Positions 1,382 to 33,985 of a stretch of 34,513 nucleotides of DNA are shown piece after piece. This DNA comes from a virus. Positions within the stretch are counted from its first letter, which is position 1, and each line of letters begins with the position of its first letter. The notes under the pieces are model-generated. The model was not told where the DNA came from. It made no database searches and saw nothing but the letters and a program-made list of their open reading frames with translations. The stretch lies in IMG/VR virus record IMGVR_UViG_3300032315_000148, positions 1-34,513 of that record. One strand, written 5' to 3'. Position numbers and translations under genes: made by a program.

Positions 1382-1400
1382 GGGGGGGGAAAGGGGGGGG
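1382..1400 (+). other. G-tract pair, possible G-quadruplex
   Basis: Eight G, three A and eight G follow the -10 box directly. Such a tract can fold as a G-quadruplex in the non-template strand or the nascent RNA. A similar, longer G-rich tract lies at 32902-32925 in the leader of the other main rightward unit, which suggests function rather than chance. Confidence 0.5.
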
Positions 1401-1411
1401 CACTAACCCGT

Positions 1412-1436
1412 GCGACCGAACCTTTCGGTTCGGCGC
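1412..1436 (+). promoter_or_regulatory. leader stem-loop
   Basis: CCGAACC (1416-1422) pairs with GGTTCGG (1427-1433) across a TTTC loop. GCG at 1412-1414 and CGC at 1434-1436 extend the stem past one bulged A. No T run follows, so it is not a standard terminator. It lies in the expected 5' leader of the 1465 gene. Confidence 0.6.
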
Positions 1437-1444
1437 AACCAATC

Positions 1445-1453
1445 ACTAGCACA
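1445..1453 (+). repeat. leader motif ACTAGCACA, copy 1
   Basis: The nonamer lies between the leader hairpin and the AAGGGAGAAG ribosome site of the gene at 1465, ending 11 nt before the start. The same word occurs at 32976-32984 and 33956-33964 in the same position relative to a hairpin and a start codon. Confidence 0.5.
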
Positions 1454-5047: not shown

Positions 5048-5106
5048 TTGTCTACGGCATGTTTGCAATGGGAGTGGCTGTGCTAGCAGTCGTATTTTTT
5101 TCATGA
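5044..5106 (+). CDS. 20-residue hydrophobic membrane micropeptide
   Basis: ATG at 5044 overlaps the RusA stop by ATGA, and the TGA at 5104-5106 overlaps the next ATG at 5103 in the same manner. Between them are 20 codons reading MIVYGMFAMGVAVLAVVFFS, a single uninterrupted transmembrane-length helix with no charge after the start. The double perfect coupling is hard to explain by chance, so I call it a gene. A membrane micropeptide could disturb membrane potential, regulate a partner, or serve mainly to carry ribosomes from rusA into the next gene. No homologue is recognised. The word TGTGCTAG occurs inside it at 5079-5086. Confidence 0.6.
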   Translation: MIVYGMFAMGVAVLAVVFFS

Positions 5107-5528: not shown

Positions 5529-5538
5529 AGAAGTCTCA

Positions 5539-5901: not shown

Positions 5902-6046
5902 TGTTGAGGTCAATCCGCAAGAGATTGCTATCGTGCTTGCACAGGTGTATGGCAACGTGGTTGTGGGTGAAGGAATACCAAAGAATGGTTTGCCCTTCGG
6001 GAGTATATATGTTGCTAATAAGAAAAGGAAGAAAAAAAATGGCTGA
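5870..6046 (+). CDS. small protein with basic tail, unknown function
   Basis: 58 residues in a frame different from both neighbours. I infer a TTG start at 5870 with AGAAAGG seven nt upstream; GTG at 5891 is an alternative. The translation begins MKTRQITVGFDVEVNPQEIA and continues with strand-like IVLAQVYGNVVVGEGIPKNG, then a lysine-rich tail (NKKRKKKNG). The overlap with the sigma-like gene is 32 nt and with the next gene 8 nt. The amino-acid make-up is far more protein-like than the competing reading from ATG 5898, which is cysteine/arginine-rich and looks like a shadow. The function is unknown; the basic tail might bind nucleic acid. Confidence 0.6.
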   Translation: MKTRQITVGFDVEVNPQEIAIVLAQVYGNVVVGEGIPKNGLPFGSIYVANKKRKKKNG

Positions 6047-6317: not shown

Positions 6318-6723
6318 AGACGTTAAATCAGAATGGGCATTAGTCGTTATTCATTGGCGTGATGCTTTTGATGGCGAGAACGGCTGGACAGACTTAGACA
6401 AGTACACACCAGAAGACACAACAGTTGTTACTGTTGGCTGGCTTGTGCCAGACATGCTTGCCAACTACGTGACCGTAGTAAACTCATACTTCCCTGATGA
6501 AGTTGAAGACCCAAAAACAGTTGGTATGCCAATTCACATTCCGATAGGAATGGTTATCAAAACAGTCACGCTACATCAGCCAACTGTTTCTATTCCTGAT
6601 TCGTCGGAGTCTCCTCAGGAATCACCAAGTTCGCAAAAGCCTGCTTTACCTTCTCAGGGCTATCCGCCATTTCTGGAGAAATCTCAAAGTGGAGCCAGTC
6701 CCCACTTCCACCGCCATGAATAG
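6307..6723 (+). CDS. conserved phage protein with W-rich beta domain, overlapping late gene
   Basis: 138 residues from ATG 6307. The N-terminal 95 residues, with EWALVVIHWRDAFDGENGW, VVTVGWLVPDM, NYVTVVNSYFPDE and HIPIGMVIKTVTL, resemble a small beta-rich family common in actinobacteriophages (a 'WxD...VGWLV...IPxGMV' pattern) of unknown function. From about residue 96 the sequence turns into a Ser/Pro/Gln-rich tail. That tail is coded by DNA which, on the other strand, encodes the end of the M15 peptidase (overlap 6590-6723). So the domain is complete before the overlap, and the tail may be a by-product of a missing stop. It is the last gene of the rightward unit. Confidence 0.75.
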   Translation: MKTKDVKSEWALVVIHWRDAFDGENGWTDLDKYTPEDTTVVTVGWLVPDMLANYVTVVNSYFPDEVEDPKTVGMPIHIPIGMVIKTVTLHQPTVSIPDSSESPQESPSSQKPALPSQGYPPFLEKSQSGASPHFHRHE

Positions 6724-16164: not shown

Positions 16165-17459
16165 TACTTACCCTTCGTTACGTTTAGACCTTGCAGGTAG
16201 TTTGCTAAATCAACCATAAACGGTGTGTAACCAGCCTTCTCTATTGTTTTCTGACCTTTTGCTTCAAGTGCTTTTCTTGCAAGCATCGCAAATGGGTCGT
16301 ATGTACGAGCCATTGTGGATTCACCACCAGCAGGACCAACATACTTACCTGAACCAACATCTGGAACAGTCTTGTACGTATCTCCTTGTGACACAATTCT
16401 TTGTGCCTCTTGAATCTTTGATTGATTCTTTTCCAAAAAGTTTGTGTATTTATTTTGAGCACTCAAATATTGTTTATACTTGAAATCATTTCCGGGGTCT
16501 TTTTCGTATGCTGCTTTCGCTGCATCAAGTGTTTCTTTTCTTGTATCAAGACCAACTTTTGGACCAGCAGCACTTTCAAGAATATTTGTAGCACCACGCA
16601 TTTCATCGTAACGCTGTTCACCCTTTTGTTTTTGAGAAGACTTAAATTGGCTATTGAGTTTGTCAAAAATACTTTTCATTGCCTTCAAATTTTTTTCAGC
16701 ATCCTTTAGTACCTGCTTTGCAGACTCACGATTCTCTGGTGTAGCAGTTGTCAACATTTGTTTTGCTGTGTTGTAATTACGCTGAGCAACAGTCATGTTG
16801 CTTTGTGCATCGGCAAACCCCGCTGGTTTACCAGATACAGCATTCTGTGAAACACCACGTGCACCCATGCGACCAAGAGCATCCATAGCGTTCTCATCAA
16901 CGCCACCAGACATAAGTTTTGCGCCACTACCAACAGCGCCAGTCTCGTAACGAGGTCTAGCAGCCTCAATAGCGTTGCTCATCTCACCAATGAACGGAAA
17001 CACATCCTGTGGAGTGAAACGAGCATTAGGGTCACGCAAACCAATCTGTTGCCAATATGGCTGGTTACTTGGTTGAGACAAGGCAGTAGTATGAGACTGC
17101 CTTTCACTAATCAATGTGCTAGTCAAATCAAACAAATCTTTTGAAGTTATGTTTGCTGGAGCATTGCCACTCTCAATCGAGTTAATAATGTCCTGCTTGA
17201 TTTGCCACTCAGGAACACCATCTTCAACCATCTTTGCAATGGACTTTCTAATGTCCATTGGGTCAGGGATACCCTCAACCTGCAACCAAGTAGGTCGGTA
17301 CTGCTGGAATAGTTGTGCTTGGTCTGGCTGGTTATTTATGCCAAGTTGTGGGCCAAATAACTTCATCACCTCGTCTTGGGACATACCACCAGCACGCAAG
17401 CGCTTAATCAGCGCTAGGAGTTGGTTGTTGTCCTGATTAGGGTCTACTTCTCCAGCCAT
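16164..17459 (-). CDS. putative internal virion protein (coiled-coil)
   Basis: 431 residues, rich in Gln, Lys, Ala and Asn, without cysteine or a membrane span. The N-terminus (DPNQDNNQLLALIKRLRAGGMSQDEVMKLFG) is helical. The middle has SGGVDENAMDALGRMGARGVSQNAVSGKPAGF, and residues 220-350 are nearly continuous charged helix (YNTAKQMLTTATPENRESAK, EKNLKAMKSIFDKLNS). This composition is like the inner-core and ejection proteins of short-tailed phages, but no specific family was recognised. GTAACAA lies 14 nt before its ATG, and no purine-rich ribosome site is evident. Its stop overlaps the start of the giant gene, so the two are probably made together. Confidence 0.78.
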   Translation of the reverse strand: MAGEVDPNQDNNQLLALIKRLRAGGMSQDEVMKLFGPQLGINNQPDQAQLFQQYRPTWLQVEGIPDPMDIRKSIAKMVEDGVPEWQIKQDIINSIESGNAPANITSKDLFDLTSTLISERQSHTTALSQPSNQPYWQQIGLRDPNARFTPQDVFPFIGEMSNAIEAARPRYETGAVGSGAKLMSGGVDENAMDALGRMGARGVSQNAVSGKPAGFADAQSNMTVAQRNYNTAKQMLTTATPENRESAKQVLKDAEKNLKAMKSIFDKLNSQFKSSQKQKGEQRYDEMRGATNILESAAGPKVGLDTRKETLDAAKAAYEKDPGNDFKYKQYLSAQNKYTNFLEKNQSKIQEAQRIVSQGDTYKTVPDVGSGKYVGPAGGESTMARTYDPFAMLARKALEAKGQKTIEKAGYTPFMVDLANYLQGLNVTKGK

Positions 17460-17476: not shown

Positions 17477-18472
17477 TTACCTACCAGAACCAAAACCCGG
17501 TCCAAACATGTTGTTCAAACCCGAAAAGTCAATTTGGCTCAAGTCAAGTGGAAGATTGGAAAAATCCTCTACTGGTGGTGGTGTAGGTGGATTCAATTTT
17601 GTAACGTCAATACCCGCTTGTGCCAGTAGTTGGGCAAGAGCAAACTTTTGCTGTTCAGCCTGAGCCTCAGCCTCAGCCTTTTTCTGAGCAATTTGGTTAG
17701 CCAAGTCAACAAGAGCCTGACTAGCGTTAGTCTGCAACTGACCCTGATAGTTGGCACGATTTGCACCAAGATTTGCCTGAGCAAACTGATTAGCAAGTTC
17801 TGCCTCAGCAGAACGTGACTGCTGACCACTTGACGAAATTTGTGCTAGTGCTGATAACAGGTCTTGTTGGTTGGATTGACCAGACTGAAGTTCTGCATTC
17901 AACATGTTCTGATAATCGCCAATATTTGCATTATTGGCGGTTAGCAAACCTTCAAGAGCATTTCTAACTGGCACAGCCTGAGGTGCCTGCATGCCAGCGT
18001 AAGGGTTCTGATAACCCGACAACGCTTTCACTAAGTTCTGGTATCCGGTATCGGTGAAACCTTGAGCCTGAGCATAACCCTCATTCAAAGAAGCAAGACT
18101 TCGTGCAAGTTGCTCATTGATTCCCTGTTCTGATGTTCCCTGCATTTTATCAAGAGCCGAAATATAGTTCCTTGAAGAATCACCATAAGCACCAGATTTA
18201 TACAGATTGGTTAATGCTGCATTTTGTGCAGCAAGATTTTCTGCAGCCTTATTTGCTGCTCCAGTTTCTTTTTGTACTTGGTACTGAAACTTTAGTTTGT
18301 TGAGAATGTCTGACGCTTTTGTTTTACTTCCAGTTCCAGAACCAGTTCCACCACCAAGATTCAATCCCGGCAAATCCCAGTTTTGACCATCAGCCCAATC
18401 TTGAAATTGTTCTATGGTCATATCACCAATGCCCTGATTATTCATTGGTCCTCTTCCGCTATAAACAGTCAT
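17477..18472 (-). CDS. putative internal virion protein, Gln/Ala-rich
   Basis: 331 residues. Residues 1-50 are Gly/Gln/Trp-rich (QFQDWADGQNWDLPGLNLGG, then GTGSGTGSKTKA). Residues 60-280 are an almost unbroken Ala/Gln/Asn/Leu helix series (AAENLAAQNAALTNLYKSG, RSAEAELANQFAQANLGAN). The end is a Pro-rich linker and a short FSNLPLDLSQIDFSGLNNMF tail. Such Q/A-rich helical proteins next to a giant protein fit the T7 gp14/gp15 type of ejection protein, by position and composition only. The start shares a base with the stop of the upstream gene. The word TGTGCTAG (plus strand) occurs at 17841-17848 within it. Confidence 0.75.
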   Translation of the reverse strand: MTVYSGRGPMNNQGIGDMTIEQFQDWADGQNWDLPGLNLGGGTGSGTGSKTKASDILNKLKFQYQVQKETGAANKAAENLAAQNAALTNLYKSGAYGDSSRNYISALDKMQGTSEQGINEQLARSLASLNEGYAQAQGFTDTGYQNLVKALSGYQNPYAGMQAPQAVPVRNALEGLLTANNANIGDYQNMLNAELQSGQSNQQDLLSALAQISSSGQQSRSAEAELANQFAQANLGANRANYQGQLQTNASQALVDLANQIAQKKAEAEAQAEQQKFALAQLLAQAGIDVTKLNPPTPPPVEDFSNLPLDLSQIDFSGLNNMFGPGFGSGR

Positions 18473-18903
18473 TAGAATCCCGCCCTTCTAGCCATAACAA
18501 TTTGCGCATCTTCCGCAATTTGTCGCAGTTTTTCTGCTTCTAAATCTAAATTACCACCCCTAATTGCATCAAGTGCCTGCTTTTCCTGCAAGTCATACTG
18601 ACCCAACTCTCGCAACATTGACTGTTGCAAATCTGACTCAGATTGCATTCTTTGCTTAGCAAACTCCATCAATCCCTTTTTGTATATTCCAGAACGAACA
18701 TTTGGTGAAGACACTCCACGCTTACCAAACGTTGCTTGATATGGCTGTAGTTGTTTGTCGTAAGACTGTGCAAGGTCACGAAAACTTCTTCCAGAACTCT
18801 GGACAGCACCTTCACGTGAATACCTAGCCATAGCGGCCTGCGGCGCATACTGTTGCTCCAAGGCACGTCTGCGTGCTTCATAAATGCTTGGGTCAAACGC
18901 CAT
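18472..18903 (-). CDS. putative small virion protein
   Basis: 143 residues. It opens MAFDPSIYEARRRALEQQY and is dominated by Arg/Gln/Ala helices, with a looser Ser/Gly/Arg middle (SSGRSFRDLAQSYDKQL, KRGVSSPNVRSGIYKKG). No cysteines, membrane span or catalytic motif were seen. It sits between the fibre-like gene cluster and the internal virion proteins, with base-sharing stop/start overlaps, and has the same Gln-rich character as its neighbours. A minor internal structural protein is the likeliest role. Confidence 0.7.
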   Translation of the reverse strand: MAFDPSIYEARRRALEQQYAPQAAMARYSREGAVQSSGRSFRDLAQSYDKQLQPYQATFGKRGVSSPNVRSGIYKKGLMEFAKQRMQSESDLQQSMLRELGQYDLQEKQALDAIRGGNLDLEAEKLRQIAEDAQIVMARRAGF

Positions 18904-19075: not shown

Positions 19076-19341
19076 TATCCAAATACCTGACCTGCTAGCA
19101 CAATCTGGTCATTTTCAGCAACGCTAGAATCAAGTTTTGCATAAGTTACAGCACCATCTGCAATCTTGAGAGTTGATACAGCGTTAGTTGCAAGTTTTGC
19201 GTTTGTAATAACCGAAGAATCAATGTTTGTTCCATCTGACAAACCGTTGACATACAACGATATAGCCGTCATGTTGGCATTCATTTCTGATGCTTCAGCA
19301 ATAGTTCCGCTAACAAACGAGTGTGGAATTATAATTGCCAT
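19075..19341 (-). CDS. short tail-fibre-like structural protein
   Basis: 88 residues. The start, PHSFVSGTIAEASEMNANMTAISLYVNGL, matches the virion-attachment region of many phage tail fibres (the 'xFVxGTxAxAxxxNANxT' pattern). The remainder has the repeat-like NAKLATNAVSTLKIADGAVTYAKL typical of fibre shafts. It is much shorter than a complete fibre, so it may be an adaptor, a trimeric shaft piece or a remnant. AGGAT lies just before its ATG, together with GTAACAG at 19346-19352. The word CTAGCACA (plus strand) is at 19095-19102, inside the C-terminal codons. Confidence 0.75.
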   Translation of the reverse strand: MAIIIPHSFVSGTIAEASEMNANMTAISLYVNGLSDGTNIDSSVITNAKLATNAVSTLKIADGAVTYAKLDSSVAENDQIVLAGQVFG

Positions 19342-20957
19342 TATCCTGTTACCTTTCGTGAATTAAACTTGTATGAGATACTGTCAATACCCCATGACAG
19401 ACCAGTTGGTCCAGTAAAGAGCAACTGCACAGAACGTGCCAGTCCAAGGTTTGAGCCACGCACAACCTGTGCACCTTCGGCCTGTACACCCCATCTTCCA
19501 GAACCCCAACGACCTTCACCCCAAACCATTCCGGTTGCGGATGCATCAATAGAAATATCAAACGTCTTACGTTCGTTTCCACTAGCCTCTTCAAAGTTGT
19601 GAAACACTTTGACATTGACTGTGCGAGCAGTATCTGACTGTTTGATAACAATGTCTGGTCTACGCCACATTTTCTTCATTGAGTAAGAACGACCATCAAC
19701 CCAACCAGTTCTGTAATAAGAAATAAAATTTGTTTCAACAGTTGCCAACAAATCGGTTTCAGCCTCAAAGGCATCAACCCTTAGAACTCGTGGAATGTTT
19801 GGGTGAATAACAAGACCGTATGTTGTACCACTAGAAGATGTGAAGTCTGTTCCACCAATAACACCATAATTGTCAGCGGTTGAAACCAATGTGTATGCAC
19901 CACGCTGACCAATGCTTGGGTCAAAAATCAAGTTAACAGTTGCGTTTGAAACAGTTGTTGTCTTTGAGTAAGGCAAAGACAACCAAACACGACGGTTGAC
20001 ATAAGACACAGAAATAGTTGATGTAGCGGCATCATTCACATAGTTGTTTGGGTAAATGGAGTTAAAGTTGTCAGATAAATCAACAATGCTCGAACCGTTG
20101 TAGAAAAACAAACCATTTGGGTGTGAGTAAAAGTAAATGCCGTTCTCTGCAACAGCAACCTTGTTTGGCGAGTCAACACCAAGCCGTGCTGTGAGTTCAA
20201 CAATAGCAAAGTCTGCCGTTTCGTAGCCGTAAACAATGTAAATTGAGTTTGGTTTGAAAACAATCAACTGACCTGCATAGACAGCAAGTGCCTTGATTCC
20301 ATCTCCACCACCGAGGAAATCAATATAATCATCAGCAGCCCAGTCATTTGGCTCAGCCTCATGAGACCAATGAAGCCTGTTTACATGAGTGGTTAAGTCG
20401 GTTCTAACTCCTGCAGCAAACATTTTGTTTGCATGCACGGCAATATGTTCACATTGTGGAAAACGATTTCGTGCTGGAGAGTTGTAGTTATTGTTAAAGT
20501 CTCCAGCCGCATCTATAATTGCAATAGCGGTTGCATAGGTGCTACCAGTCTCCCAATAATAAGTAGAAGTCCCACTTGTTCCAGTTGCAATATAAAGTTG
20601 ACTACCCCAGTTGGAAAACGATGCACCATAAGTATTAGATGCGACAATGTTATTTCCAGAAGAATACTGTAACTGCGTAAAATTAGTACCACTAGAATGA
20701 AACACCCCAGTACTACTGGCAAGCATTACTCTAGGTGATGCGCCATAAAAAGCATGCAGACGATGTGGGTTCCATGTGCCAGTTATAGCCGTTGAGTTAA
20801 TCTCACGCATAGCACCACGAGTAAACAAACCACCACGTGGGTCAATTTCAACATTCAACATGTCAGGTGACTCATTGCGAGCCAACTGAAATTGGTCTGC
20901 CCTGAGGTTTAGACCACCTGTGAAGTCGTCGTAGCGTTCAACGGATACATTGCTCAT
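19341..20957 (-). CDS. tail nozzle / tail tubular protein B-like
   Basis: 538 residues, almost entirely predicted beta. The N-terminus, YDDFTGGLNLRADQFQLARNESPDMLNVEIDPRGGLFTRGAM, is the conserved opening of short-tailed-phage nozzle proteins (the 'F.GG.N.r......nE..d..N.d....G....R.G' pattern). Repeated strand blocks follow (HVNRLHWSHEAEPNDW, IKALAVYAGQLIVFKPNSIYIVYG), suggesting a beta-propeller like T7 gp12 or P22 gp10. In the virion it would continue the channel below the head-tail adaptor encoded next door. The start overlaps the adaptor stop by four bases (ATGA). Confidence 0.78.
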   Translation of the reverse strand: MSNVSVERYDDFTGGLNLRADQFQLARNESPDMLNVEIDPRGGLFTRGAMREINSTAITGTWNPHRLHAFYGASPRVMLASSTGVFHSSGTNFTQLQYSSGNNIVASNTYGASFSNWGSQLYIATGTSGTSTYYWETGSTYATAIAIIDAAGDFNNNYNSPARNRFPQCEHIAVHANKMFAAGVRTDLTTHVNRLHWSHEAEPNDWAADDYIDFLGGGDGIKALAVYAGQLIVFKPNSIYIVYGYETADFAIVELTARLGVDSPNKVAVAENGIYFYSHPNGLFFYNGSSIVDLSDNFNSIYPNNYVNDAATSTISVSYVNRRVWLSLPYSKTTTVSNATVNLIFDPSIGQRGAYTLVSTADNYGVIGGTDFTSSSGTTYGLVIHPNIPRVLRVDAFEAETDLLATVETNFISYYRTGWVDGRSYSMKKMWRRPDIVIKQSDTARTVNVKVFHNFEEASGNERKTFDISIDASATGMVWGEGRWGSGRWGVQAEGAQVVRGSNLGLARSVQLLFTGPTGLSWGIDSISYKFNSRKVTG

Positions 20958-21649
20958 TGTCCAAGTGTCGCTCCAAGCGTCTGCAACCAGCGACGCATAG
21001 TTGGATACTGGCGACCACCAGACATAATAACCGGCTGTGCGCTTGATGCTTTCATCAAGTCACGGCGAGCAAGACCAACACCCTCTTCAAATGAGTTCAT
21101 GTACATCTGCGACAACTGTGCATCTTCTTGACGCTGATACACACGGGCTAGCACAAAATAAGGCAACAAAGCATGAAACCATTCATCAAGGTCAATGGTC
21201 TCGCCAGTATTAGTCAACCATGTGTACAGAGGGTTTCTAAAAGCACGAACAGTCATTGGATAGATGGCATCAGGCTTAGCCCACAACTGAATCTTCTTAT
21301 CCCAGAATGAATAAAAGTATGGTCGTGAAGGCACATCAGTATTTCCAAGCCAAATATCTTCTGCTTGGTTGTAATCAATCAAAGTCAGACGATTACCAGA
21401 TGTGCTCGAATCCACAACCGAGATAATCTCACGAATGTCACCAATTGTAGAGATTGTGTATTCACGTTGACCAATTACAGTGTTAAAGGTGTAAGTCTCT
21501 TGAAGGTACGGCCATCTGCGCTCTAAAGAATAAATACGTTGGAAGCCCTCACGAGCAAACTGGTCAACAATACTGTCAGGCAAATCCACTTCATCAAGGT
21601 CAGCCATATTCCTAACTTGGGTGCGAAGTTGTGTGAGAGTAATGCTCAT
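20954..21649 (-). CDS. head-tail adaptor / tail tubular protein A-like
   Basis: 231 residues. The first 45, LTQLRTQVRNMADLDEVDLPDSIVDQFAREGFQRIYSLERRWPYLQE, form the helical start typical of podovirus adaptors (T7 gp11, P22 gp4 and related proteins). A strand-rich middle (QREYTISTIGDIREIISVV, KKIQLWAKPDAIYPMTVRAF) and a helical DEWFHALLPYFVLARVYQRQED block follow. It would dock onto the portal and carry the nozzle protein encoded just downstream. The ATGA overlap with the next gene supports joint expression. The word CTAGCACA is at 21148-21155. Confidence 0.8.
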   Translation of the reverse strand: MSITLTQLRTQVRNMADLDEVDLPDSIVDQFAREGFQRIYSLERRWPYLQETYTFNTVIGQREYTISTIGDIREIISVVDSSTSGNRLTLIDYNQAEDIWLGNTDVPSRPYFYSFWDKKIQLWAKPDAIYPMTVRAFRNPLYTWLTNTGETIDLDEWFHALLPYFVLARVYQRQEDAQLSQMYMNSFEEGVGLARRDLMKASSAQPVIMSGGRQYPTMRRWLQTLGATLGQ

Positions 21650-22284: not shown

Positions 22285-22416
22285 TTAATACTTACTCTTT
22301 GATTTTGATTGCTTCTTGCTTTTACCACCCTTAGTTGGCGGGTAGGTAGAAGTCTTTGTGCCAGCCTTAGGACTTGCATCCGCATGGCTAGAAAGAATTG
22401 AATACTTGTAAGGCAT
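22285..22416 (-). CDS. 43-residue basic small protein
   Basis: This gene is very short but convincing. ATG at 22416 has a perfect AAGGAG seven nt upstream, and the reading frame is open to TAA at 22285. The product begins MPYKYSILSSHADASPKAGT and ends in a lysine/serine tail (KGGKSKKQSKSKSKY). It lies between the terminator-like hairpin at 22438-22463 and the basic protein at 22273. It may be a small structural peptide; the function is unknown. Confidence 0.65.
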   Translation of the reverse strand: MPYKYSILSSHADASPKAGTKTSTYPPTKGGKSKKQSKSKSKY

Positions 22417-22915: not shown

Positions 22916-23860
22916 TTAGGCGGTCTTTGCCGTGAGTTTGCCCTGCTTCGCACGGTTGCGACAGGTGAGGTTGCCGTAGCACATGATGAGCGCATAGCGA
23001 GCATCGGTGTCTTCTGGCTTGATGAAGTCCGTCTGAGCGAACCACTTGTTGCTGTGACCTACCAAGGTGAGGTACTTCGTGTTAAGGAAGTAGAACACAC
23101 CAGCGGTGCAATGCACGTCGTACATTACAGGAGCAGCCTTGAACAACAGGTTCTGGAATCCAGCATCTGCGGTCTTGGTGTCCGTGTAACGGAGGTTTGG
23201 CTGAAGCAATGCTTCGTACTTCTCAAACAAGGTCTGAGTTGTCAACAAGGTGTCTGGGTGGTCATTACCAACCGAAACGCTGTTGTAAGCGGTGCTCATT
23301 TGTGCAAGAGTCAACGCAGTTGCGGTGTTCTCTTCGTATGAACGCCAGAACTCGTTGCCTGAAGTTGCTGAGTTGATTCCACCAACGGTGTTGCCGGATT
23401 CAACCAAGTTACCAAGACCGTTCCAGTCCTTTGAACTGTTGCCAGTTCCGTCAGCAAAGAACATCTGGTTGAACGATTCACGCATTGACTCTTCTGCCTG
23501 CATAATCTTGGCTTCGAGCAAGTTGATGATTTCTTGTTCACCATTGTTCTTGGCTTCTTCAATACCGCTGATTGCGATGGATGCAGCGTACTGCTTCCAT
23601 TCGTACTCAGCAGCCGAGATGCCTTCCTGTGGTGCCAATGACAGCGAATCGTATCCGCTGTATGAAGCCACAGTTGAGTTCTTGCCGTAGATGAGTGGTT
23701 CAACAATCTTCGTACCGCCGTTGAGCATACGAATGCGACCGTTGTCCATCAACTTGTAGGTCAAAGGACGTGCTGTGAACACGTTGTCGGTTAGTTGCGA
23801 ACGGTAGTTCGCAAGGGTGGTTGAGAGCAACTGGTCAAAGTTGCTGTTTGCTGATGGCAT
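22916..23860 (-). CDS. major capsid protein (HK97-type fold likely)
   Basis: 314 residues with AAGGAG before the ATG. N-terminal sequence SNFDQLLSTTLANYRSQLTDNVFTARPLTYKL, then MLNGGTKIVEPLIYGKNSTVASYSGYDSL, and a long helix AKNNGEQEIINLLEAKIMQAEESMRESFNQMFFADGTG are typical of the N-arm, E-loop and spine helix of HK97-fold coat proteins in environmental phages. The later DHPDTLLTTQTLFEKYEALLQPNLRY and YGNLTCRNRAKQG are the usual A-domain and closing strands. Portal, scaffold, coat and adaptor occur in standard order, which makes the call firm. Confidence 0.88.
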   Translation of the reverse strand: MPSANSNFDQLLSTTLANYRSQLTDNVFTARPLTYKLMDNGRIRMLNGGTKIVEPLIYGKNSTVASYSGYDSLSLAPQEGISAAEYEWKQYAASIAISGIEEAKNNGEQEIINLLEAKIMQAEESMRESFNQMFFADGTGNSSKDWNGLGNLVESGNTVGGINSATSGNEFWRSYEENTATALTLAQMSTAYNSVSVGNDHPDTLLTTQTLFEKYEALLQPNLRYTDTKTADAGFQNLLFKAAPVMYDVHCTAGVFYFLNTKYLTLVGHSNKWFAQTDFIKPEDTDARYALIMCYGNLTCRNRAKQGKLTAKTA

Positions 23861-23881: not shown

Positions 23882-24667
23882 CTAGACGTTTAGTTGCCGT
23901 TTTGCGGCTTCAAAAGCATCTCGCAATGATGTGATTGGTTTTGCTGATACATCTGCAGACTTTGCTGTGCTAGTACTACTCACAACTGATGCTTGACGTT
24001 TTGCTTCTGTAACTTTGTTTTTCACTTCGTTTTGCTTTGCAGCATTTTCACGAATTGAACGACTCTGCTCATAAACACGGTCAAACGCAATTTGCTTGTA
24101 GATTGACTCCAAATCTGTTGAACCTGTGGCTAACGCCTTGGCTACAACTTCGTTGGCATCAAAATCTGCTCCGTATCGGGTTTGAAGCGTCTGGACAGTT
24201 CTTTCCAACTCATCCATAGCCTTTTGTTGTTCAAAAGCCTGAATACGTTGTTCCAACTGTCGGTACTGCTTTTCAACTGGGTCCATGAACAGGTCTTCTT
24301 CTTCAGAAGTTGTCTGTCCAACACCGTAATGTTGTGAAAGAAGTGCCAAAGTACCAGAAGGGTCGTTTTGCAAGGCTTCTTGCAAAGCGACTCCAAATTG
24401 TACTTGTCGCCTTTGCTCACTGAGTTCCTGTGTCTTGCGGGTATAGTCCGCTTGACGCTGGTATCCAGAAAGCGCCTCTTTCAGAGGGACATTAACTTCC
24501 TCTCCGTTAACTAGCACAGAAACATATTTGTCTCCAAACTCGTCTACAGGGAGAAGGTCAATCTCTTCTGCTGTAAGGGCATCAACTACATCCGCAACTT
24601 CTTGAGATTGTCCTAGGTCTTCTAGGGTCTCTTCGGTTGTGATTTCATTGCTATTTATATCGCTCAT
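23882..24667 (-). CDS. capsid scaffolding protein
   Basis: 261 residues. The start is very acidic (NEITTEETLEDLGQSQEVADVVDALTAEEIDLL). A short folded piece, KYVSVLVNGEEVNVPLKEALSGYQRQADYTRKTQEL, is common in scaffold proteins of environmental phages. The rest is Gln/Glu/Lys/Ala coiled coil ending in FEAAKRQLNV. Composition and location between portal and coat genes both indicate a scaffold that guides procapsid assembly and then leaves. No protease motif was seen. A GGAGGA ribosome site precedes the ATG, with GTAACGA 40 nt upstream; this is the largest spacing in that series. Confidence 0.85.
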   Translation of the reverse strand: MSDINSNEITTEETLEDLGQSQEVADVVDALTAEEIDLLPVDEFGDKYVSVLVNGEEVNVPLKEALSGYQRQADYTRKTQELSEQRRQVQFGVALQEALQNDPSGTLALLSQHYGVGQTTSEEEDLFMDPVEKQYRQLEQRIQAFEQQKAMDELERTVQTLQTRYGADFDANEVVAKALATGSTDLESIYKQIAFDRVYEQSRSIRENAAKQNEVKNKVTEAKRQASVVSSTSTAKSADVSAKPITSLRDAFEAAKRQLNV

Positions 24668-24710: not shown

Positions 24711-26525
24711 TTACATTCCCGGCGGCATTCCACCTTGCTGTGATAACAACGCCAAGATTTCTGGTGGCAATTCCTCGCCACCCATTTGTTCTACGCCAGC
24801 CTCACTAGGAGCCATACCACCTTGTGGTGGCATCATTCCTTCAGGTGGCATCATTGCCTCTGGTGGTGGAGTCCCCTGTGGAGTTATTTGCTGTGCTGGC
24901 ATTTGTGGTTGAATAATGAACGAAGCACCCGAACGGATGCCAAACCCTTGTTGAAGTACAAAACTAGCCAACTTTGGCATATCAATAATTCCTGCAGAAG
25001 CAAATGGCGCCATTGCGTCAACAACCTGCATTGCCATCTGACGACGGAATGATTCGTTAACTGGCTGAGTTGAACCACCCTCTACCTCAAAGTCAAATTC
25101 ACCTTGAATATAATCACGGTCAAATTCGAGCCAAAATGGTTGTGCTTCCTGTCCAGCAATACGTACAGCCTGCTGACCGGTCATGTATTGCTGTGCAAGG
25201 ATAATCAATCGTTTTGCAATCTCAGCAATTGACAATTCAACAATAGCCAACTTCTCAGATGCACGAGCATTGGCATTATCTTGAATAATGCCCGCTTCGG
25301 TTGCTGTACGCCTAATTTCTGGCAAACCACCACGCATGTATTCAGACACACCAGATACACGGTCAATGTCTCCAGAGATGAGGCTTGACTGGTTGTAGAA
25401 CTCTGGTGGACTGATAACTGCTGGCATTGGTGTAATAACGTTTCCAATACCTTCTTCTGAAATAACTGGAACCATCACGTTATCTTCATCTGACTCCAAC
25501 GCTGCACGACCATCAGCGTCAAATGCTGATTCCTTGTACAACCACTTGCGTGAGAAACGCTTACGATGGTTCATCATCTGGGTACGAGTTGCGTTCAATT
25601 CCTGTTGCAATGGTTCAATTGCTTCCAACTCACCCATTGGGTAAAAGTATTCAGGAATTTCATAATTACGCAACATTACAAATGGATGACCAAACTTAAA
25701 TGGTATTTCTGTTGGGTTAATCAAAAACTTGTCCGAACCATCACAGAACACCGACATGGTATTTCTATCAATGTCATACCATTCCCAAATTTCTACATAA
25801 GAATCACTTGGGTCTGTTGAACGACGTGGTGAATAACCATCTTGACCATACTTTGAATAATGCGATGGTGCAGCCTCGTTTCGTGCTACAGAGTTATAGC
25901 GCTTATCTTTTTTAACATCTAGCAATGGTCTGCGTACTCGCTGTGCAATCCATTTAATGTCATACATTGTCGTAGCATCTGGGTCAACAAAAATATCAAA
26001 TGGACTAACACGTTCAATAAATGGTCGGTCTTCTTTAATGATAAGTTCCGATTCCATATTTGACTCTGGAGCATCTGAAACAAGTTCGTCGTAAGAATCA
26101 AAGTTTGCTTGCGCAACCTTTTCCTCTTCAACAAACCTATAACCGGTCTTAATCCAACCATGTCCAAGAATCAAGAAGTCACGAACTGCACGCTTAAATT
26201 CTTTTTGGCATTCGTAATGTCTCCACCAGTAGTTAACAATTGATTCTGTAAGAATCGCCTTGTCACTATCTTCGTATTTACGAGCATTAACCGTAATCTT
26301 TGGATAACTAATAGAAACAGACGGTGCAACAACGTTAATTGTTGCAAAAGCAATGTTCACCAACAAACGGTCTTCTTCTGAAACACCTTTGTAATGCTTA
26401 CCACGATAAAGGTCAATCATCCGTCGCCAAACTTCGTCACAGGCTTCTTCATGCCTCCAGCGACGTGACTGGTCTAACTTGTCACGATACTTTTTAAGAA
26501 CTTCGCTATTTGGTGTACGTGCCAT
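24711..26525 (-). CDS. portal protein
   Basis: 604 residues. The N-terminus is RRWRHEEACDEVWRRMIDLYRGKHYKG, then LLVNIAFATINVVAPSVSISYPKITVNARK, the clip-and-wing opening common in portals of short-tailed environmental phages. The stem/crown region has EAIEPLQQELNATRTQMMNHRKRFSRKWLYKE and SGVSEYMRGGLPEIRRTATEAG. The last 70 residues are Pro/Met/Gly-rich and probably disordered (TPQGTPPPEAMMPPEGMMPP). It forms the dodecameric DNA gate, receives the large terminase during packaging and later the adaptor. The TAATG-type junction with the upstream membrane protein gene shows close packing. Confidence 0.88.
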   Translation of the reverse strand: MARTPNSEVLKKYRDKLDQSRRWRHEEACDEVWRRMIDLYRGKHYKGVSEEDRLLVNIAFATINVVAPSVSISYPKITVNARKYEDSDKAILTESIVNYWWRHYECQKEFKRAVRDFLILGHGWIKTGYRFVEEEKVAQANFDSYDELVSDAPESNMESELIIKEDRPFIERVSPFDIFVDPDATTMYDIKWIAQRVRRPLLDVKKDKRYNSVARNEAAPSHYSKYGQDGYSPRRSTDPSDSYVEIWEWYDIDRNTMSVFCDGSDKFLINPTEIPFKFGHPFVMLRNYEIPEYFYPMGELEAIEPLQQELNATRTQMMNHRKRFSRKWLYKESAFDADGRAALESDEDNVMVPVISEEGIGNVITPMPAVISPPEFYNQSSLISGDIDRVSGVSEYMRGGLPEIRRTATEAGIIQDNANARASEKLAIVELSIAEIAKRLIILAQQYMTGQQAVRIAGQEAQPFWLEFDRDYIQGEFDFEVEGGSTQPVNESFRRQMAMQVVDAMAPFASAGIIDMPKLASFVLQQGFGIRSGASFIIQPQMPAQQITPQGTPPPEAMMPPEGMMPPQGGMAPSEAGVEQMGGEELPPEILALLSQQGGMPPGM

Positions 26526-26972: not shown

Positions 26973-28559
26973 TTACTCCCGTACATTGAAAGCACCAATA
27001 GGTGACTTGGGTTCTTGTTTTTCTTTCATTATGAACTTTTCCCACCATCCAAGTGTATTTTTAACTGGCGCTGGGTCATAACGATATTCTGGAAGCCAAA
27101 CATACTTAAGCATCTGATTGCCAATGGCTAAAGACATTACACGGTCGTCATGCGGGGAGCCATGCATCTTGCCATTGGCTTCACGCACAAAAGTGCGCAA
27201 TTCAGCAATAGTGCTTTTATCATAAATGAGTATTGATTCGTCTCGCACAGCAGCGTTAAGTTCATCAATGGCTAAAGGCTTAGAAACAGCAGTTGTTCTC
27301 CAACCCATAGTGTCACTAATCTGCGGATTTCTGCTATTCATTTTTCTCTGTCGGTAAATGTTTCTATATCCGACTCTTTGCAAACCTTTAATTGTTGTTA
27401 AACCATGGTTGTTGGACTCAACCCCAATAAGGGCATGGTTGTAGTAATAACCTAAAGCCCTGAGAATTACTTCACCAAAAACGTCTGGGTCAACGTGACC
27501 ATGCCATTGGGCAACTAATAGTCCAGTATTGGCTGAAATAATGTGGGCTGAACTAAAGTCACCATGCCCAAGACCTTCAGCAACGTCGGCACCAATTACA
27601 TAAATTTCTTGACTATCTGGTAACTCCCAAATTGAAAGTTCTCCACCATCTTCAATAAATGTGTAATGGTTTCTACCAATCTCATTTTTTAGATAACCAC
27701 GCTTTGGTTCAATTGGTTCAATATTTCGCAAAGCATCAATATCAAATACAGGACGACCAGAACGAATGAACGCTTCATCTGGATTGTCCGGATACTCCTG
27801 AGCCAACTGCCAGTCAGGAAGGTCACGCTTCTTAGCCTCATACCAGTTTTCATCACGGTCTCCAGCAGACCATGGAAAGAACACACCAGTAAATCGGTTT
27901 GTGCTAGTTTGCGAACCAACCCATAGTTGGTGAAAGATATTGCCCTCACCGTTGGCTGTGCTCAAACAGATAACACGACCACCAACGTCAGCAATAGGTT
28001 CAATAGATGCCCACGCTTCTTCAGCGTTGGGCAAGAACGCCATTTCGTCAATGATTACTCGATACACAGATTCACCACGAGCAGGGTCATTACCAGATGG
28101 TAAAGACTCAATAGCAGAGTCATTAGCAAATACCATCTTCAACTGGTTATCAGAAAGTAAGTCTGGTCCACGCACACGCATCCACGCAGGAAGCATCTTG
28201 TATCCATACTTGGTCTTCTGCAACAACTTGGATGCTTCACGCTCGGTACGTGAAAGCATGACCGTAAAGCGGTCAGCCCAAAAGAATGTTTCCCAGAATG
28301 TGAATGCAGCAGCCAGAGTAGAGAACCCAATCTGTCGTGCCTTCAGAACAATGCTGTAGCGAGAGTCAATCCAAACCCGCACAGTTTCTTCTTGCGCTTC
28401 ACGCAATACAAACTTGATACGACCCCGCTCAGGGTGTCGAATCATCCAATGGGTAGCACAAAAGTGTGAAAATGCAGCCACCAATTCCTCGGTGGTTGCA
28501 CCCTCACGACCTTTGCATTTCCTCCACTCCTTCTCATTGAGAAGGTCAGTGAGTTCCAT
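26973..28559 (-). CDS. terL: terminase large subunit
   Basis: 528 residues. The ATPase half has LKARQIGFST (Walker A, about 72-81), VIIDE at 168-172 (Walker B with catalytic glutamate) and ICLSTANGEGN (coupling motif, about 197-207). The nuclease half has VIGADVAEGLGHGDFS (D325 and D334), LIGVESNN (E381) and SPHDDRVMSLAIG (D471/D472), the acidic RNase H-like triad. It pumps DNA into procapsids and cuts it into genome lengths. Length and motifs are complete. Its start shares a base with the stop of the small membrane gene at 28559. The small terminase is 3.8 kb away, beyond the fibre and lysis-type genes. Confidence 0.95.
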   Translation of the reverse strand: MELTDLLNEKEWRKCKGREGATTEELVAAFSHFCATHWMIRHPERGRIKFVLREAQEETVRVWIDSRYSIVLKARQIGFSTLAAAFTFWETFFWADRFTVMLSRTEREASKLLQKTKYGYKMLPAWMRVRGPDLLSDNQLKMVFANDSAIESLPSGNDPARGESVYRVIIDEMAFLPNAEEAWASIEPIADVGGRVICLSTANGEGNIFHQLWVGSQTSTNRFTGVFFPWSAGDRDENWYEAKKRDLPDWQLAQEYPDNPDEAFIRSGRPVFDIDALRNIEPIEPKRGYLKNEIGRNHYTFIEDGGELSIWELPDSQEIYVIGADVAEGLGHGDFSSAHIISANTGLLVAQWHGHVDPDVFGEVILRALGYYYNHALIGVESNNHGLTTIKGLQRVGYRNIYRQRKMNSRNPQISDTMGWRTTAVSKPLAIDELNAAVRDESILIYDKSTIAELRTFVREANGKMHGSPHDDRVMSLAIGNQMLKYVWLPEYRYDPAPVKNTLGWWEKFIMKEKQEPKSPIGAFNVRE

Positions 28560-29005: not shown

Positions 29006-30364
29006 TTACGGCTTGCGTGAAGACACAGCAATGGCTGTAGCACCTGCGGCCACAGCAATCAGGGTGCGACGGGTATCTACTGGCACAGATGAACCCAGAG
29101 GCACGTAGTCACCAAAGTCGTCGGAGAAGATGTCAATGGTGTCCTCAAATGCTTGTCGCACCTCTAAGGGTGCGGACTGGACAGCCTCTGTGACCGCATC
29201 TTTTTCTTCTTCGCTTATCTCCGCTACATCCAAAGACTCAAAGATTTCAACTGCCTGCTGTGGGCTGATAACAGATAGTACCTCTGGGCTGGTCGCCAAA
29301 GCGACAGCCTGCTCAGGGGTGGGTGGTTCTTCTTGTGCCACAATCTGGTCAACAACCTGCTCTACCTGTTCAGGGGTAAGTTCCTCAAGCACGGCAACAA
29401 GTTCTTCTGTGGTTGTGGCTTCTTCAATCAAAGCCAATACTTCTTCTTCGGCCAATGGCTTCAAATTTGGCTCTAAATCTGGCTCTACCGTTGTGGTAGT
29501 CTCTTCAGGTGCTTCAGATGTTGTGGTCACTTCCTCAGTTGTTGTGGTCACTTCTTCAACTGTCGTGGTTGTTTCTTCTGGAAGCGTCTCCTCTGGAATG
29601 GGTTCCTCTTCTACTGGCTCTGTGGTGCTTGTCGTTGTTTCTTCAGGCTCTTCGGGAACGTAAATTTCAACGGGTGCTGGAAGAGTTGAACTTGTTGTTG
29701 TAGTAGTTGTCGTTGACGATGTTGTAGTCGTCGTACTTGTCGTCGTGGTTGTCGTAGTTGAAGTAGACGTTATGGTCGTCGTTGTACTCGTACTTGATGT
29801 TGAGGTTTCTGGAACCGTCGTAGAAGTCGTGCTGGTGGCAGGGACAGTCGTTGACGGGGCAATAGTAGTAGTTGTCGTCGTTGTTGGGATTGTGGATGTT
29901 GTTGTAAATTCCCATAATGAAAGGTCGCTTATCGTTAAGTGACCCGGCTGACAACACGAATCAATTGAATACTGTCTGAATGTAAATATATCACCAGCCG
30001 TTACTTCAACAGTCAAAGACCCTGTGGCTTGGTTCAACCGTGTCAGTAATGTGTACACACCATTGACGCCATACTGTGGCGGGTCATAGACCCAGCCATC
30101 AGCAGTCCAATACGACCATGTAAACGAAACACTATTTACACCCTCTGGGATTGTGGTCTCAATCTTTACCCAGTTAGCCCCACCACACCCACCACCATCA
30201 GGCCCTGTAATAACAATCGAGTTTTCAACTACGTTCACAGAACCTGTGGCACAGGACTGCGAAGCGGTCCAGTCGCCTAAACCATCTGCTTTAGCAACTG
30301 TTGACCATAATGCCAGTAAGGCTACTGGAACAAAAATTATCCAGCGTCTGGAATTGGAAGCCAT
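29006..30364 (-). CDS. secreted protein: signal peptide, beta-sandwich domain, Thr-rich stalk, acidic region
   Basis: 452 residues. Residues 1-26 (NSRRWIIFVPVALLALWSTVAKA) are a classic signal peptide with an AKA cleavage site. Residues 27-152 form a beta-rich domain with C38, C60, C137 and C138; its FTWSYWTADGW, YGVNGVYTLLT and TVEVTAGDIFTFRQYSID blocks match a domain found in secreted environmental bacterial proteins. From about 154 comes a Thr/Ser-rich stalk, then a Glu/Thr/Pro-rich acidic repeat, a helical region (EVLALIEEATTTEELVAVLEEL) and a short hydrophobic end LIAVAAGATAIAV flanked by RR and RK. Phage virion proteins do not normally carry signal peptides, so it is likely displayed or released by the infected cell. 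The Thr-rich stalk recalls acidimicrobial secreted proteins, hinting at host origin. Its start lies within the end of the previous gene. Confidence 0.85.
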   Translation of the reverse strand: MASNSRRWIIFVPVALLALWSTVAKADGLGDWTASQSCATGSVNVVENSIVITGPDGGGCGGANWVKIETTIPEGVNSVSFTWSYWTADGWVYDPPQYGVNGVYTLLTRLNQATGSLTVEVTAGDIFTFRQYSIDSCCQPGHLTISDLSLWEFTTTSTIPTTTTTTTIAPSTTVPATSTTSTTVPETSTSSTSTTTTITSTSTTTTTTTSTTTTTSSTTTTTTTSSTLPAPVEIYVPEEPEETTTSTTEPVEEEPIPEETLPEETTTTVEEVTTTTEEVTTTSEAPEETTTTVEPDLEPNLKPLAEEEVLALIEEATTTEELVAVLEELTPEQVEQVVDQIVAQEEPPTPEQAVALATSPEVLSVISPQQAVEIFESLDVAEISEEEKDAVTEAVQSAPLEVRQAFEDTIDIFSDDFGDYVPLGSSVPVDTRRTLIAVAAGATAIAVSSRKP

Positions 30365-30690: not shown

Positions 30691-31544
30691 TAGAAAGTAA
30701 TGCTTCCTGTGCCAGTAAATGTGTAAACATGATAACCAGACCTAGAAGAACTACTATAGGTTGGTGAACCAGTTGTTGCAGTTGCTTCAGCAAAAGTTGA
30801 AGGGTATGCAATAATAACAACACCAGAACCGCCAGAGTTAACAGTATCAGCGACGTTAGTGGTTCCATTCCATGAGCCACCATTACCAGTGTTTGCACCA
30901 CTTACTAAAACAATGTCACCACCATGTCCACCTCTTGCACGAGTAACAGCCGAACCAGTTATAGAACTTGATGTTCCCACACCAGCAGTAGAAAATTGAC
31001 TTGGAAGCCCACCAGAACCACCACCACCAGGGTTTCCTGACGATGATGCTTGAACTCCGTCATAACCTTCTGCTGGAGTGTAATTACCTACGTTTCCTAA
31101 ACCTTTAGCACCGTAACCCTGACCGCCGTTGCTCGCACCAGCCGAACCACCCGAACCACCGCTACCGCCCGCACCATAAATACCGCCACCAGAACCACCA
31201 CCTGAAGCACTATAAGAAAATGCTGATGATGCTCCACCAGTACCAGAACCATACGAGTTCTGGTTTCCAGTACCATTACCGCCACCGCCAACAGTGATTG
31301 TGTATTGAGTTCCAGCAGTTACAGCCGTTCCAGTAAATGAACGATAACCACCAGCACCTGCACCACCAAGAGCGCATCCACCGCCGCCAGCAATAAGCAA
31401 AAAGTCAATTGCTGTTGGAGGCAATAACGAACCACCAGACCAATAAGATGCTACCTGTGCAGTACTAGCACGGCGTGAGCGTGGAGCCAACGAACCACCG
31501 CTGATGGCTTTACCACCTGATGTGTTTCTAATGAAGGAAGGCAC
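30690..31544 (-). CDS. glycine-rich adhesin / tail tip protein
   Basis: 284 residues from a GTG start with AGGGG upstream. After a short basic head, residues 45 onward are dominated by Gly, Ser and Ala. It opens with IDFLLIAGGGGCALGGAGAGGYRSF and continues with GGG-x-GG patches that recall the polyglycine sandwich of T-even gp38-type adhesins and the glycine-rich fibre ends of cyanophages. The closing segment (SGVVIIAYPSTFAEATATTG ... GYHVYTFTGTGSITF) is the standard ending of these domains in environmental genomes. It probably determines receptor binding. The Gly loops are expected to vary fast between related phages. Confidence 0.8.
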   Translation of the reverse strand: MPSFIRNTSGGKAISGGSLAPRSRRASTAQVASYWSGGSLLPPTAIDFLLIAGGGGCALGGAGAGGYRSFTGTAVTAGTQYTITVGGGGNGTGNQNSYGSGTGGASSAFSYSASGGGSGGGIYGAGGSGGSGGSAGASNGGQGYGAKGLGNVGNYTPAEGYDGVQASSSGNPGGGGSGGLPSQFSTAGVGTSSSITGSAVTRARGGHGGDIVLVSGANTGNGGSWNGTTNVADTVNSGGSGVVIIAYPSTFAEATATTGSPTYSSSSRSGYHVYTFTGTGSITF

Positions 31545-32870: not shown

Positions 32871-32879
32871 TGTGCTAGC
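32871..32879 (-). repeat. GCTAGCACA motif upstream of the leftward unit
   Basis: On the minus strand this is GCTAGCACA, 37 nt before the small-terminase start. It matches the ACTAGCACA words of the rightward leaders except for the first base. Confidence 0.4.
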
Positions 32880-32901
32880 CACTCAAAGATATGTAACGAA
32901 C

Positions 32902-32925
32902 GGGGGGGAGGGTAGGGAGGGGGGG
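32902..32925 (+). other. G-quadruplex-forming tract in the divergent region
   Basis: Runs of 7, 3, 3 and 7 G are separated by A, TA and A, a strong G-quadruplex pattern on the plus strand. It is preceded by GATATGTAACGAAC. The tract lies between the leftward small terminase and the rightward gene at 33002 and parallels the G tract at 1382-1400. Confidence 0.6.
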
Positions 32926-32943
32926 AAGGACAGAACTGTCTGA

Positions 32944-32961
32944 GCCACCCCTAAGGGTGGC
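32944..32961 (+). promoter_or_regulatory. leader stem-loop
   Basis: GCCACCC (32944-32950) pairs with GGGTGGC (32955-32961) across CTAA. As in the leader at 1412-1436 it has seven pairs and a four-base loop, follows a G tract and precedes ACTAGCACA. No T run follows. Confidence 0.6.
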
Positions 32962-32975
32962 GAACAACCAGTCCG

Positions 32976-32984
32976 ACTAGCACA
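32976..32984 (+). repeat. leader motif ACTAGCACA, copy 2
   Basis: It lies 14 nt after the leader hairpin and ends 17 nt before the ATG at 33002, with GAGAGG between. CAACCA precedes it by a few bases, as in copy 1 at 1445. Confidence 0.5.
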
Positions 32985-33001
32985 GTTTGAGAGGTGAACA
33001 C

Positions 33002-33525: not shown

Positions 33526-33577
33526 CCCCCACCCTATGCACCCACCCTGCTTGTGCGAGCGTTTGCGGGCGTTTGCG
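33526..33577. repeat. C-rich tract and tandem GCGTTTGCG in the non-coding gap
   Basis: The non-coding stretch 33423-33663 holds C runs of 5, 3, 3 and 3 at 33526-33547 (a G-quadruplex pattern on the minus strand). GCGTTTGCG then occurs twice at 33559-33567 and 33569-33577, a ten-base step. These could mark an origin, a packaging site or a protein-binding array; the sequence alone cannot decide. Confidence 0.4.
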
Positions 33578-33913: not shown

Positions 33914-33942
33914 TTGACTACCGAGTAGTCACTACTTAGTAA
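33914..33942 (+). promoter_or_regulatory. possible promoter overlapping a palindromic operator
   Basis: TTGACT at 33914-33919 could be a -35 box. The 17-nt spacer contains AGTAGTCACTACT (33924-33936), a second palindrome. The would-be -10 TAGTAA at 33937-33942 is weak and overlaps the palindrome at 33938-33954. This placing would let a bound repressor block transcription. Confidence 0.3.
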
Positions 33943-33954
33943 GACCGTCTTACT
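33938..33954 (+). promoter_or_regulatory. 17-bp palindrome AGTAAGACCGTCTTACT, upstream copy
   Basis: Eight-base arms meet around a central C. It is followed directly by ACTAGCACA and the start of the gene at 33986. An exact copy is at 34412-34428 after that gene, and an imperfect one is in stem-loop A. It may be an operator in DNA or a seven-pair hairpin in RNA. Confidence 0.6.
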
Positions 33955-33955
33955 A

Positions 33956-33964
33956 ACTAGCACA
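33956..33964 (+). repeat. leader motif ACTAGCACA, copy 3
   Basis: One base after the palindrome at 33938-33954 and 21 nt before ATG 33986, with GAGAGA between. The order hairpin, ACTAGCACA, ribosome site, start codon is the same as in the leaders at 1412-1465 and 32944-33002. Confidence 0.5.
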
Positions 33965-33985
33965 ACATACAAAGAGAGATAGACA

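Follow-up and report, generated by a model that had tools for sequence, protein, structure and literature searches.

The leader element ACTAGCACA is an instance of a phage-private DNA word of eight bases, CTNGCACA (complement TGTGCNAG), which recurs every ~0.7 kb on both strands of the analysed stretch of DNA (34,513 nucleotides, here called the window). This private word is kept genome-wide and is likely to be read by the helix bundle of the phage primase, with its copies as priming sites and the leaders carrying a G tract as possible replication starts.

The window is the genome of a freshwater actinophage. A WhiB-type protein is encoded at positions 35-154 and likewise in 17 of the 21 long genomes of the family, which indicates an actinobacterial host; whiB is also present in cultivated Planktophila phages (PMC10202952). 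The relatives were taken from IMG/VR via the terminase, the exonuclease and the G tract of leader A, and their genomes are metagenomic. Most of the long ones carry a single copy each of leader A and leader B, which point the same way. Identification of the host via the pattern G7-AYTATA-G7 was abandoned: its 25 matches in bacterial genomes, none of them with the upstream GTAACG word, are low-complexity noise. A small protein with weak similarity to sigma-70 region 4 (5518-5901, plus strand; in 20 of 21 genomes) is a possible phage sigma-like factor, and a small basic protein (33159-33422, plus strand) is conserved in cyanophages, pelagiphages and Methylophilales phages, its homologue from a Synechococcus phage being annotated as DUF6321. 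Coordinates of the window and the words of its relatives are collected in Table 1.

Table 1. Features of the window (position, strand) and over-represented words of related genomes.
Feature	Position or genomes	Strand	Remark
Leader B promoter TTGACC-16 nt-TACAAT, G tract immediately 3'	1354..1381	+	Sequence and spacing (sigma70-like)
Leader B double G tract G8-AAA-G8 = GGGGGGGGAAAGGGGGGGG	1382..1400	+	Same element precedes exonuclease gene in relatives
Leader B hairpin GCG-A(bulge)-CCGAACC-TTTC-GGTTCGG-CGC	1412..1438	+	p=0.00, z=-3.1; covariation
Primase-type site CTAGCACA, leader B	1446..1453	+	11 nt upstream of exonuclease GTG start at 1465
PD-(D/E)XK exonuclease gene, downstream of leader B	1465..2334	+	Pfam PDDEXK_1 1.7e-7
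CTNGCACA site in gene	1659..1666	-	
CTNGCACA site in gene	1824..1831	-	
CTNGCACA site in gene	2115..2122	-	
DnaB-like helicase gene	2762..3799	+	Pfam DnaB_C 2.4e-11
CTNGCACA site in gene	3349..3356	-	
CTNGCACA site in gene	3574..3581	+	
Archaeo-eukaryotic primase gene, proposed word reader	3735..4688	+	Pfam AEP-TOTE 8.7e-17; AF2 and Foldseek
Part of primase gene for C-terminal helix-bundle domain (residues ~226-317)	4410..4688	+	Divergence tracks word; model helices 229-307
CTNGCACA site in primase gene	4515..4522	+	
CTNGCACA site	5079..5086	-	
CTNGCACA site	5936..5943	+	
CTNGCACA site	6444..6451	-	
CTNGCACA site	7385..7392	-	
CTNGCACA site	7425..7432	+	
CTNGCACA site	7840..7847	-	
CTNGCACA site	8463..8470	+	
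CTNGCACA site	9482..9489	-	
CTNGCACA site	9777..9784	+	
CTNGCACA site	10449..10456	+	
CTNGCACA site	11031..11038	-	
CTNGCACA site	11334..11341	+	
CTNGCACA site	11752..11759	-	
CTNGCACA site	12307..12314	-	
CTNGCACA site	12597..12604	+	
CTNGCACA site	14363..14370	-	
CTNGCACA site	14430..14437	+	
CTNGCACA site	15466..15473	-	
CTNGCACA site	15852..15859	+	
CTNGCACA site	16066..16073	-	
CTNGCACA site	17115..17122	-	
CTNGCACA site	17619..17626	-	
CTNGCACA site	17841..17848	-	
CTNGCACA site	17968..17975	+	
CTNGCACA site	18767..18774	-	
CTNGCACA site	19095..19102	+	
CTNGCACA site	19620..19627	-	
CTNGCACA site	20775..20782	-	
CTNGCACA site	21148..21155	+	
CTNGCACA site	22357..22364	-	
CTNGCACA site	23301..23308	-	
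CTNGCACA site	23966..23973	-	
CTNGCACA site	24511..24518	+	
CTNGCACA site	25192..25199	-	
CTNGCACA site	27242..27249	+	
CTNGCACA site	27900..27907	-	
CTNGCACA site	29080..29087	+	
CTNGCACA site	30708..30715	-	
Site CTAGCACA, leftward terminase leader	32871..32878	-	RCTAGCACA form spans 32871-32879
ATGTAACG, conserved promoter-like word upstream of leader A	32891..32898	+	Information content
Leader A four-run G tract G7-A-GGG-TA-GGG-A-G7 = GGGGGGGAGGGTAGGGAGGGGGGG	32902..32925	+	
Leader A hairpin GCCACCC-CTAA-GGGTGGC	32944..32961	+	
Site CTAGCACA, leader A	32977..32984	+	17 nt upstream of ATG 33002
CTNGCACA site	33552..33559	-	
Third-leader promoter TTGACT-17 nt-TAGTAA	33914..33942	+	
Operator-like palindrome AGTAAGACCGTCTTACT, not leader hairpin	33938..33954	.	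Further copies 33886, 34412
Site CTAGCACA, third leader	33957..33964	+	
Word CGNAGACA	G004, G005		
Word CANGCACA	G006, G007		
Word CCNACACA	G008, G009		
Word CGTNCACA or CGNACACA	G010-G012		
CGT/CGG-type CACA words	G001-G003, G017		
Word CGNCCACA	G018		
Word CANCTACA	G020		
Word GCACTACA, one-base shift of frame	G013		

In the window CTNGCACA has 49 copies versus 5.6 expected (z 17.9); the best word in 15 simulated (order-3 random) genomes reached a z of at most 5.8. After shuffling of synonymous codons, with proteins and codon usage kept, 6.5 copies were found in genes versus 43 observed, and the remaining one-base variants of the word stay at or near background. The copies lie on both strands and mostly within genes; over 17 genomes 310 word sites are sense, 234 antisense and 64 intergenic. 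This distribution, together with the codon shuffle, indicates that the word acts at the level of DNA and not of mRNA, and a role in RNA or translation was rejected on these grounds. Nor is the word start-specific, since its RCTAGCACA form (16 in the window versus about 0.55 expected) is also present in the terminase leader and 12 of the 16 copies are away from any leader.

The first-pass annotation had proposed an independent analogue of the start-associated sequences (SAS/ESAS) of Cluster K, where, as here, a repeated word near starts is combined with upstream inverted repeats in an actinophage (PMC3203893). A start-associated signal of translation or of the leader, acting in mRNA together with the hairpin, would agree with the sense orientation of the word in most leaders and with its distance of 10-24 nt from the start codon where measured. 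It is nevertheless very improbable: the word occurs mainly within genes, its 608 sites include 234 that are antisense to the gene hosting them, synonymous codons are chosen to create the word within genes, and sites of Cluster K lie at start codons (PMC3203893). The SAS is moreover a different word of different length (13 bp, GGGATAGGAGCCC, the non-structural half; PMC3203893), and its authors saw little support for hairpins in mRNA (PMC3203893), whereas the hairpins described here covary in sequence. With a word that is genome-wide, mostly in genes, on both strands and different between relatives the analogy does not hold.

Per strand the sites are spaced by 1.4-3.3 kb, and the strands of successive sites alternate beyond chance (Fisher p 8e-6, 10 non-redundant genomes). 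Since the sites are just slightly more even than expected at random (window p 0.015; p 0.08 when genomes are combined), strand alternation alone is used as support. At 43 of the 49 sites in the window a purine follows the word; over all genomes this bias is mild (76% vs 63% background), with C avoided (6% vs 16%).

Most of the 21 genomes possess their own word of the frame C-x-N-y-z-ACA, private to the genome or clade, and genomes whose word is different mostly contain few copies of it. The words that two leaders have in common are longer when leaders A and B come from a single genome (7.33 bases) than when the leaders come from different ones (6.15 bases; permutation p=0.0016, 18 genomes), and the word common to A and B of a genome ranks among its most over-represented 8-mers. 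In 26 of 34 G-tract leaders (19 genomes) the genome's own word is found in sense and in one in antisense, 1.7 being expected; 8 of the 34 are without it. The word follows the hairpin, in most cases at a distance of 41-65 nt from the G tract. Here it has been switched in place, as seen between G013 and G020 in leader B (GCACTACA/CAACTACA) and between G008 and G011 in leader A (CCAACACA/CGTACACA). The earlier proposal to look for RCTAGCACA near start codons of related phages thus has a divided outcome: ACTAGCACA is not a conserved leader word, as it is wholly missing from distant homologues, but at the same place these have a word of their own. A search for over-represented words gave no such word in G016 or in the more distant related phage MW202803 (primase annotated). 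In G013 (L376-L377) a second private word, TAATCCCG, has 13 copies versus 0.4 expected.

That the leaders at 1382-1464 and 32902-33001 share a G tract, a 7-bp stem with a 4-base loop, CAACCA, ACTAGCACA and a ribosome site was correctly noticed at first reading and can be read directly from the window. In leader B the core stem-loop CCGAACC-TTTC-GGTTCGG (1416-1433) is followed by CAACCA, by ACTAGCACA at 1445-1453 and by the ribosome site ahead of the exonuclease gene; in leader A hairpin and CAACCA precede ACTAGCACA at 32976-32984, and ATG 33002 opens a small basic gene. Related phages retain the order of G tract, hairpin, word and ribosome site. They also keep the extended -10 pattern TGnTAnnnT of leader B, and their leader A G tract reads G7-A(C/T)TATA-G7 or G6-AGGGGTAGGGGA-G6. 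A promoter for a T7-like phage RNA polymerase, which ACTATAGGG resembles, was set aside on weak evidence, with 0 RNA polymerase matches in 16 genomes and the control search equally silent. An Rfam search of the leaders gave no match at gathering scores, the best weak matches being low-complexity miRNA models.

Several variants of these parts occur elsewhere. G7-(A/T)AA-G7 stands directly 3' of -10-like boxes (TTGACA..TATAAT) in L245, L266, L269, L282, L301 and L322, in L240, L272, L279, L283, L320, L328 and L332, and in L238, L261, L267 and L270; the search pattern itself demanded a T preceding the G run. In other phage lineages this element, often without a hairpin, appears as a separate promoter-proximal G element. 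In leader B of L083 (9891-9930), L087, L088, L096 and L098 the place of the G tract, downstream of a TATAAT box, is taken by CCCCC-N4-GGGGGG-N18-GGGGGG, a sequence that does not appear quadruplex-like. An inverted repeat ACCACT-nnn-AGTGGT, degenerate in the window, separates the terminase leader from the leader-A promoter in L022, L024, L113, L200 and others. Another phage group (L115, L123, L125, L129, L132, L140) combines the leader-A G tract with two hairpins, the second around CGGGGC-GAGC...AGCCCCG, and with unrelated genes downstream.

What is conserved in the hairpin is its structure. Of 61 dereplicated leaders from related freshwater actinophages, 52 have a best hairpin that outperforms dinucleotide shuffles (p<=0.05), with a median z of -2.8 in class A and -3.6 in class B; tested singly, the hairpin of the window is significant in leader B (p=0.00) and not in leader A (p=0.12). 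As had been supposed, the plan is kept while stem sequences differ: own arms pair at -18.2 kcal/mol and arms swapped between leaders at -7.5, and in 57 of 61 leaders the own arm is preferred over 95% of others, loops being variable. The proposed covariance check revealed compensatory changes, with two-sided changes in 13 cells of seven aligned leader-B hairpins, a count that none of 500 shuffles reached; a one-base shift of the partner abolishes the pairing. Retention of the hairpin under changing sequence makes the plan of the leader genuinely conserved, and the hairpin may act as RNA or as single-stranded DNA. It does not belong to every word site, as sites outside leaders have ordinary flanks (median folding -2.7 kcal/mol; random -2.4, leaders -11.4).

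Strong, covarying hairpins would also suit a 5' stabiliser of mRNA made of G tract and hairpin, in which the G tract, directly following the -10 box, would sit at the 5' end of the transcript and the word would be unrelated and present by density. We hold this to be unlikely, as chance density predicts the word in far fewer leaders than observed; a stabilising role of hairpin and G tract may, however, hold alongside the reading of the word by the primase.

The third leader (33938-33985) had been thought to keep the hairpin plan. Its architecture differs, since its inverted repeat is the dispersed palindrome AGTAAGACCGTCTTACT, of which close relatives carry 5-6 copies and the window also a degenerate one at 3005. 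Two copies are 52 bp apart, and that at 33938 overlaps the -10 of the TTGACT-17-TAGTAA promoter, so that AGTAAGACCGTCTTACT is better read as an operator; at 33938 it is probably at or before the transcript start. The palindrome AGTAAGACNGTCTTACT, found in the window at 33886, 33938 and 34412 (degenerate at 3005) as well as in L051, L053, L062 and L110-L112, is a likely operator set of the near clade. The words AACTGATA/TATCAGTT are strongly over-represented (~12 copies vs 1-2) in G001, G002, G003, G006 and G017 (L344-L349, L352-L353, L362-L363) as well as in L071, L072 and L091, and may serve other clades as their operator word.

Identities of orthologous proteins were compared between close genomes that carry the same word and between close genomes that carry different ones. 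In two pairs with different words the primase is much less conserved than its neighbours, namely 76% identical versus 95% for the helicase and 97% for the exonuclease (G005-G006), and 83% versus 97% and 96% (G013-G020). The divergence is concentrated in one domain: the C-terminal helix bundle is 89-95% identical in same-word pairs (catalytic/helix-bundle 86/93, 92/95, 81/89, 100/91) and 53-73% in different-word pairs (87/54, 84/53, 89/68, 90/73, 86/73), the catalytic domain being 81-100% identical in both. Comparison of close pairs thus shows an association of helix-bundle domain and word at the sequence level (partial Mantel p=0.008; independent switches are few, about three). Even at full length the primase best separates same-word from different-word pairs among 15 testable ortholog groups. 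Against the link counts the pair G011 and G019, whose words are similar and whose bundles are just 75% identical. Because divergence of its C-terminal domain follows the word and that of its catalytic domain does not, the phage archaeo-eukaryotic primase is probably the reader of the word.

The structural predictions are consistent with this assignment. An AEP catalytic domain is recognised by Pfam (AEP-TOTE, 8.7e-17) and by Foldseek (CRISPR-associated prim-pol CAPP, E 1e-12), and the DID motif is invariant in 18 primase sequences. The AlphaFold2 model (mean pLDDT 83) has an AEP core and five C-terminal helices at 229-307, i.e. a predicted helix bundle after the catalytic core as in the primases of pRN1, NrS-1 and RSF1010 (RepB'). 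Whole-length Foldseek matches are RepB' (3h20, E 6e-5) and the pRN1 primase (9aam, 3m1m), with low TM-scores (0.26-0.32) that perhaps result from differing domain orientation.

Two other readings of scattered words have to be weighed against the primase. Chi sites are scattered, over-represented and asymmetric, and an asymmetric, over-represented 8-mer scattered over both strands could be such a site that protects from or directs a recombination nuclease, either a host enzyme of the AdnAB/RecBCD type or the phage PD-(D/E)XK enzyme. This appears highly unlikely, since the exonuclease is 96-98% identical in close different-word pairs (G005-G006, G013-G020) and just 72% in a same-word pair, a site set by the host is not expected to track a phage primase domain, and leader position and in-place switching are left unexplained. 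Stoperators of cluster A phages are phage-private words with tens of copies and variation among close relatives, features shared by the words described here. Asymmetric sites of that kind, bound by a phage repressor for a genome-wide halt of transcription with heteroimmune variation, are the least probable alternative, as the sense and antisense counts given above reveal no clear orientation to transcription, no other protein among the 15 ortholog groups follows the word as well as the primase does, and the phages have separate palindromic operator-like repeats.

Primases with known recognition sites offer the closest parallels to the proposed reader. In pRN1 and NrS-1 the helix bundle binds a recognition site in the template, GTG or TTTGGTTA (PMC8718748), and synthesis begins at the first base upstream of it (PMC8718748). 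The NrS-1 primase-polymerase is likewise a phage-encoded AEP primase with a helix-bundle domain (PMC8718748, PMC7102993), and its recognition sequence 5'-TTTGGTTA-3' of 8 nt, with short GTG recognition and priming beside the site (PMC8718748, PMC7102993), compares with an 8-base word here. In contrast, NrS-1 carries just two copies of its sequence, both in the middle of the genome, whereas tens occur genome-wide here and the word switches between close relatives; there is also no fused polymerase or ring-helicase domain here, a separate DnaB-like helicase adjoining instead. ORF904 of pRN1 shares the AEP core with C-terminal helix bundle and the whole-length fold match (3m1m, 9aam). Its bundle reads 5'-GTG-3'; GTG is contained in TGTGCNAG and TGTG in the complements of most words, with TGTCTNCG and TGTAGNTG as exceptions that lack GTG. 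However, the ORF904 site has three bases versus 6-7 specified here, and in the plasmid pRN1 a large stem-loop origin follows the primase gene. RepB' of RSF1010 has the same succession of catalytic domain, linker and helix bundle (whole-length match to 3h20), and in ssiA/ssiB a short hairpin lies beside the primase site, matched by the leader hairpin directly before the word. In ssiA, hairpin and GTG share a strand, with GTG on the 3' side (PMC4434180). Since here it is on the strand complementary to the order hairpin-word, the leaders depart from the RSF1010 type of ssi in this feature; besides, RSF1010 has one ssi per strand, in contrast with many plain sites and few hairpin leaders here. No report of genome-wide, switchable primase words was found in the open-access literature.

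Mechanistically, the helix-bundle domain would bind the word on the single-stranded template and the primase would lay primers beside it, so that the scattered copies would be lagging-strand priming sites; the per-strand spacing and strand alternation would suit this. If a lineage gained a different helix bundle, its genome would be re-populated with a new C-x-N-y-z-ACA word. In the G-tract leaders a covarying hairpin directly precedes a sense copy of the word, and we tentatively suggest the hypothesis that they are replication starts similar to single-strand initiation sites, which promoter transcription running into the G tract might open. GC skew follows gene direction and offers no separate indication that replication starts at the leaders. 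A more extended proposal, to which we give an even chance, is a switchable priming code: a modular bundle reads C-x-N-y-z-ACA, its exchange rewrites the dozens of sites in a genome, own DNA is favoured over that of rivals or satellites, and the leaders are replication starts opened by transcription.

Few primases with long recognition sequences are known. The ~20 natural primase-genome pairs represent paired sequences of domain and word, which are enough to start on a recognition code. As a caution, a word seen at gene starts may really be a genome-wide replication site. If true, the proposal would show how dozens of sites are regained across a genome once specificity has switched, and it would give freshwater actinobacterial phages a mark that distinguishes self from non-self in replication.
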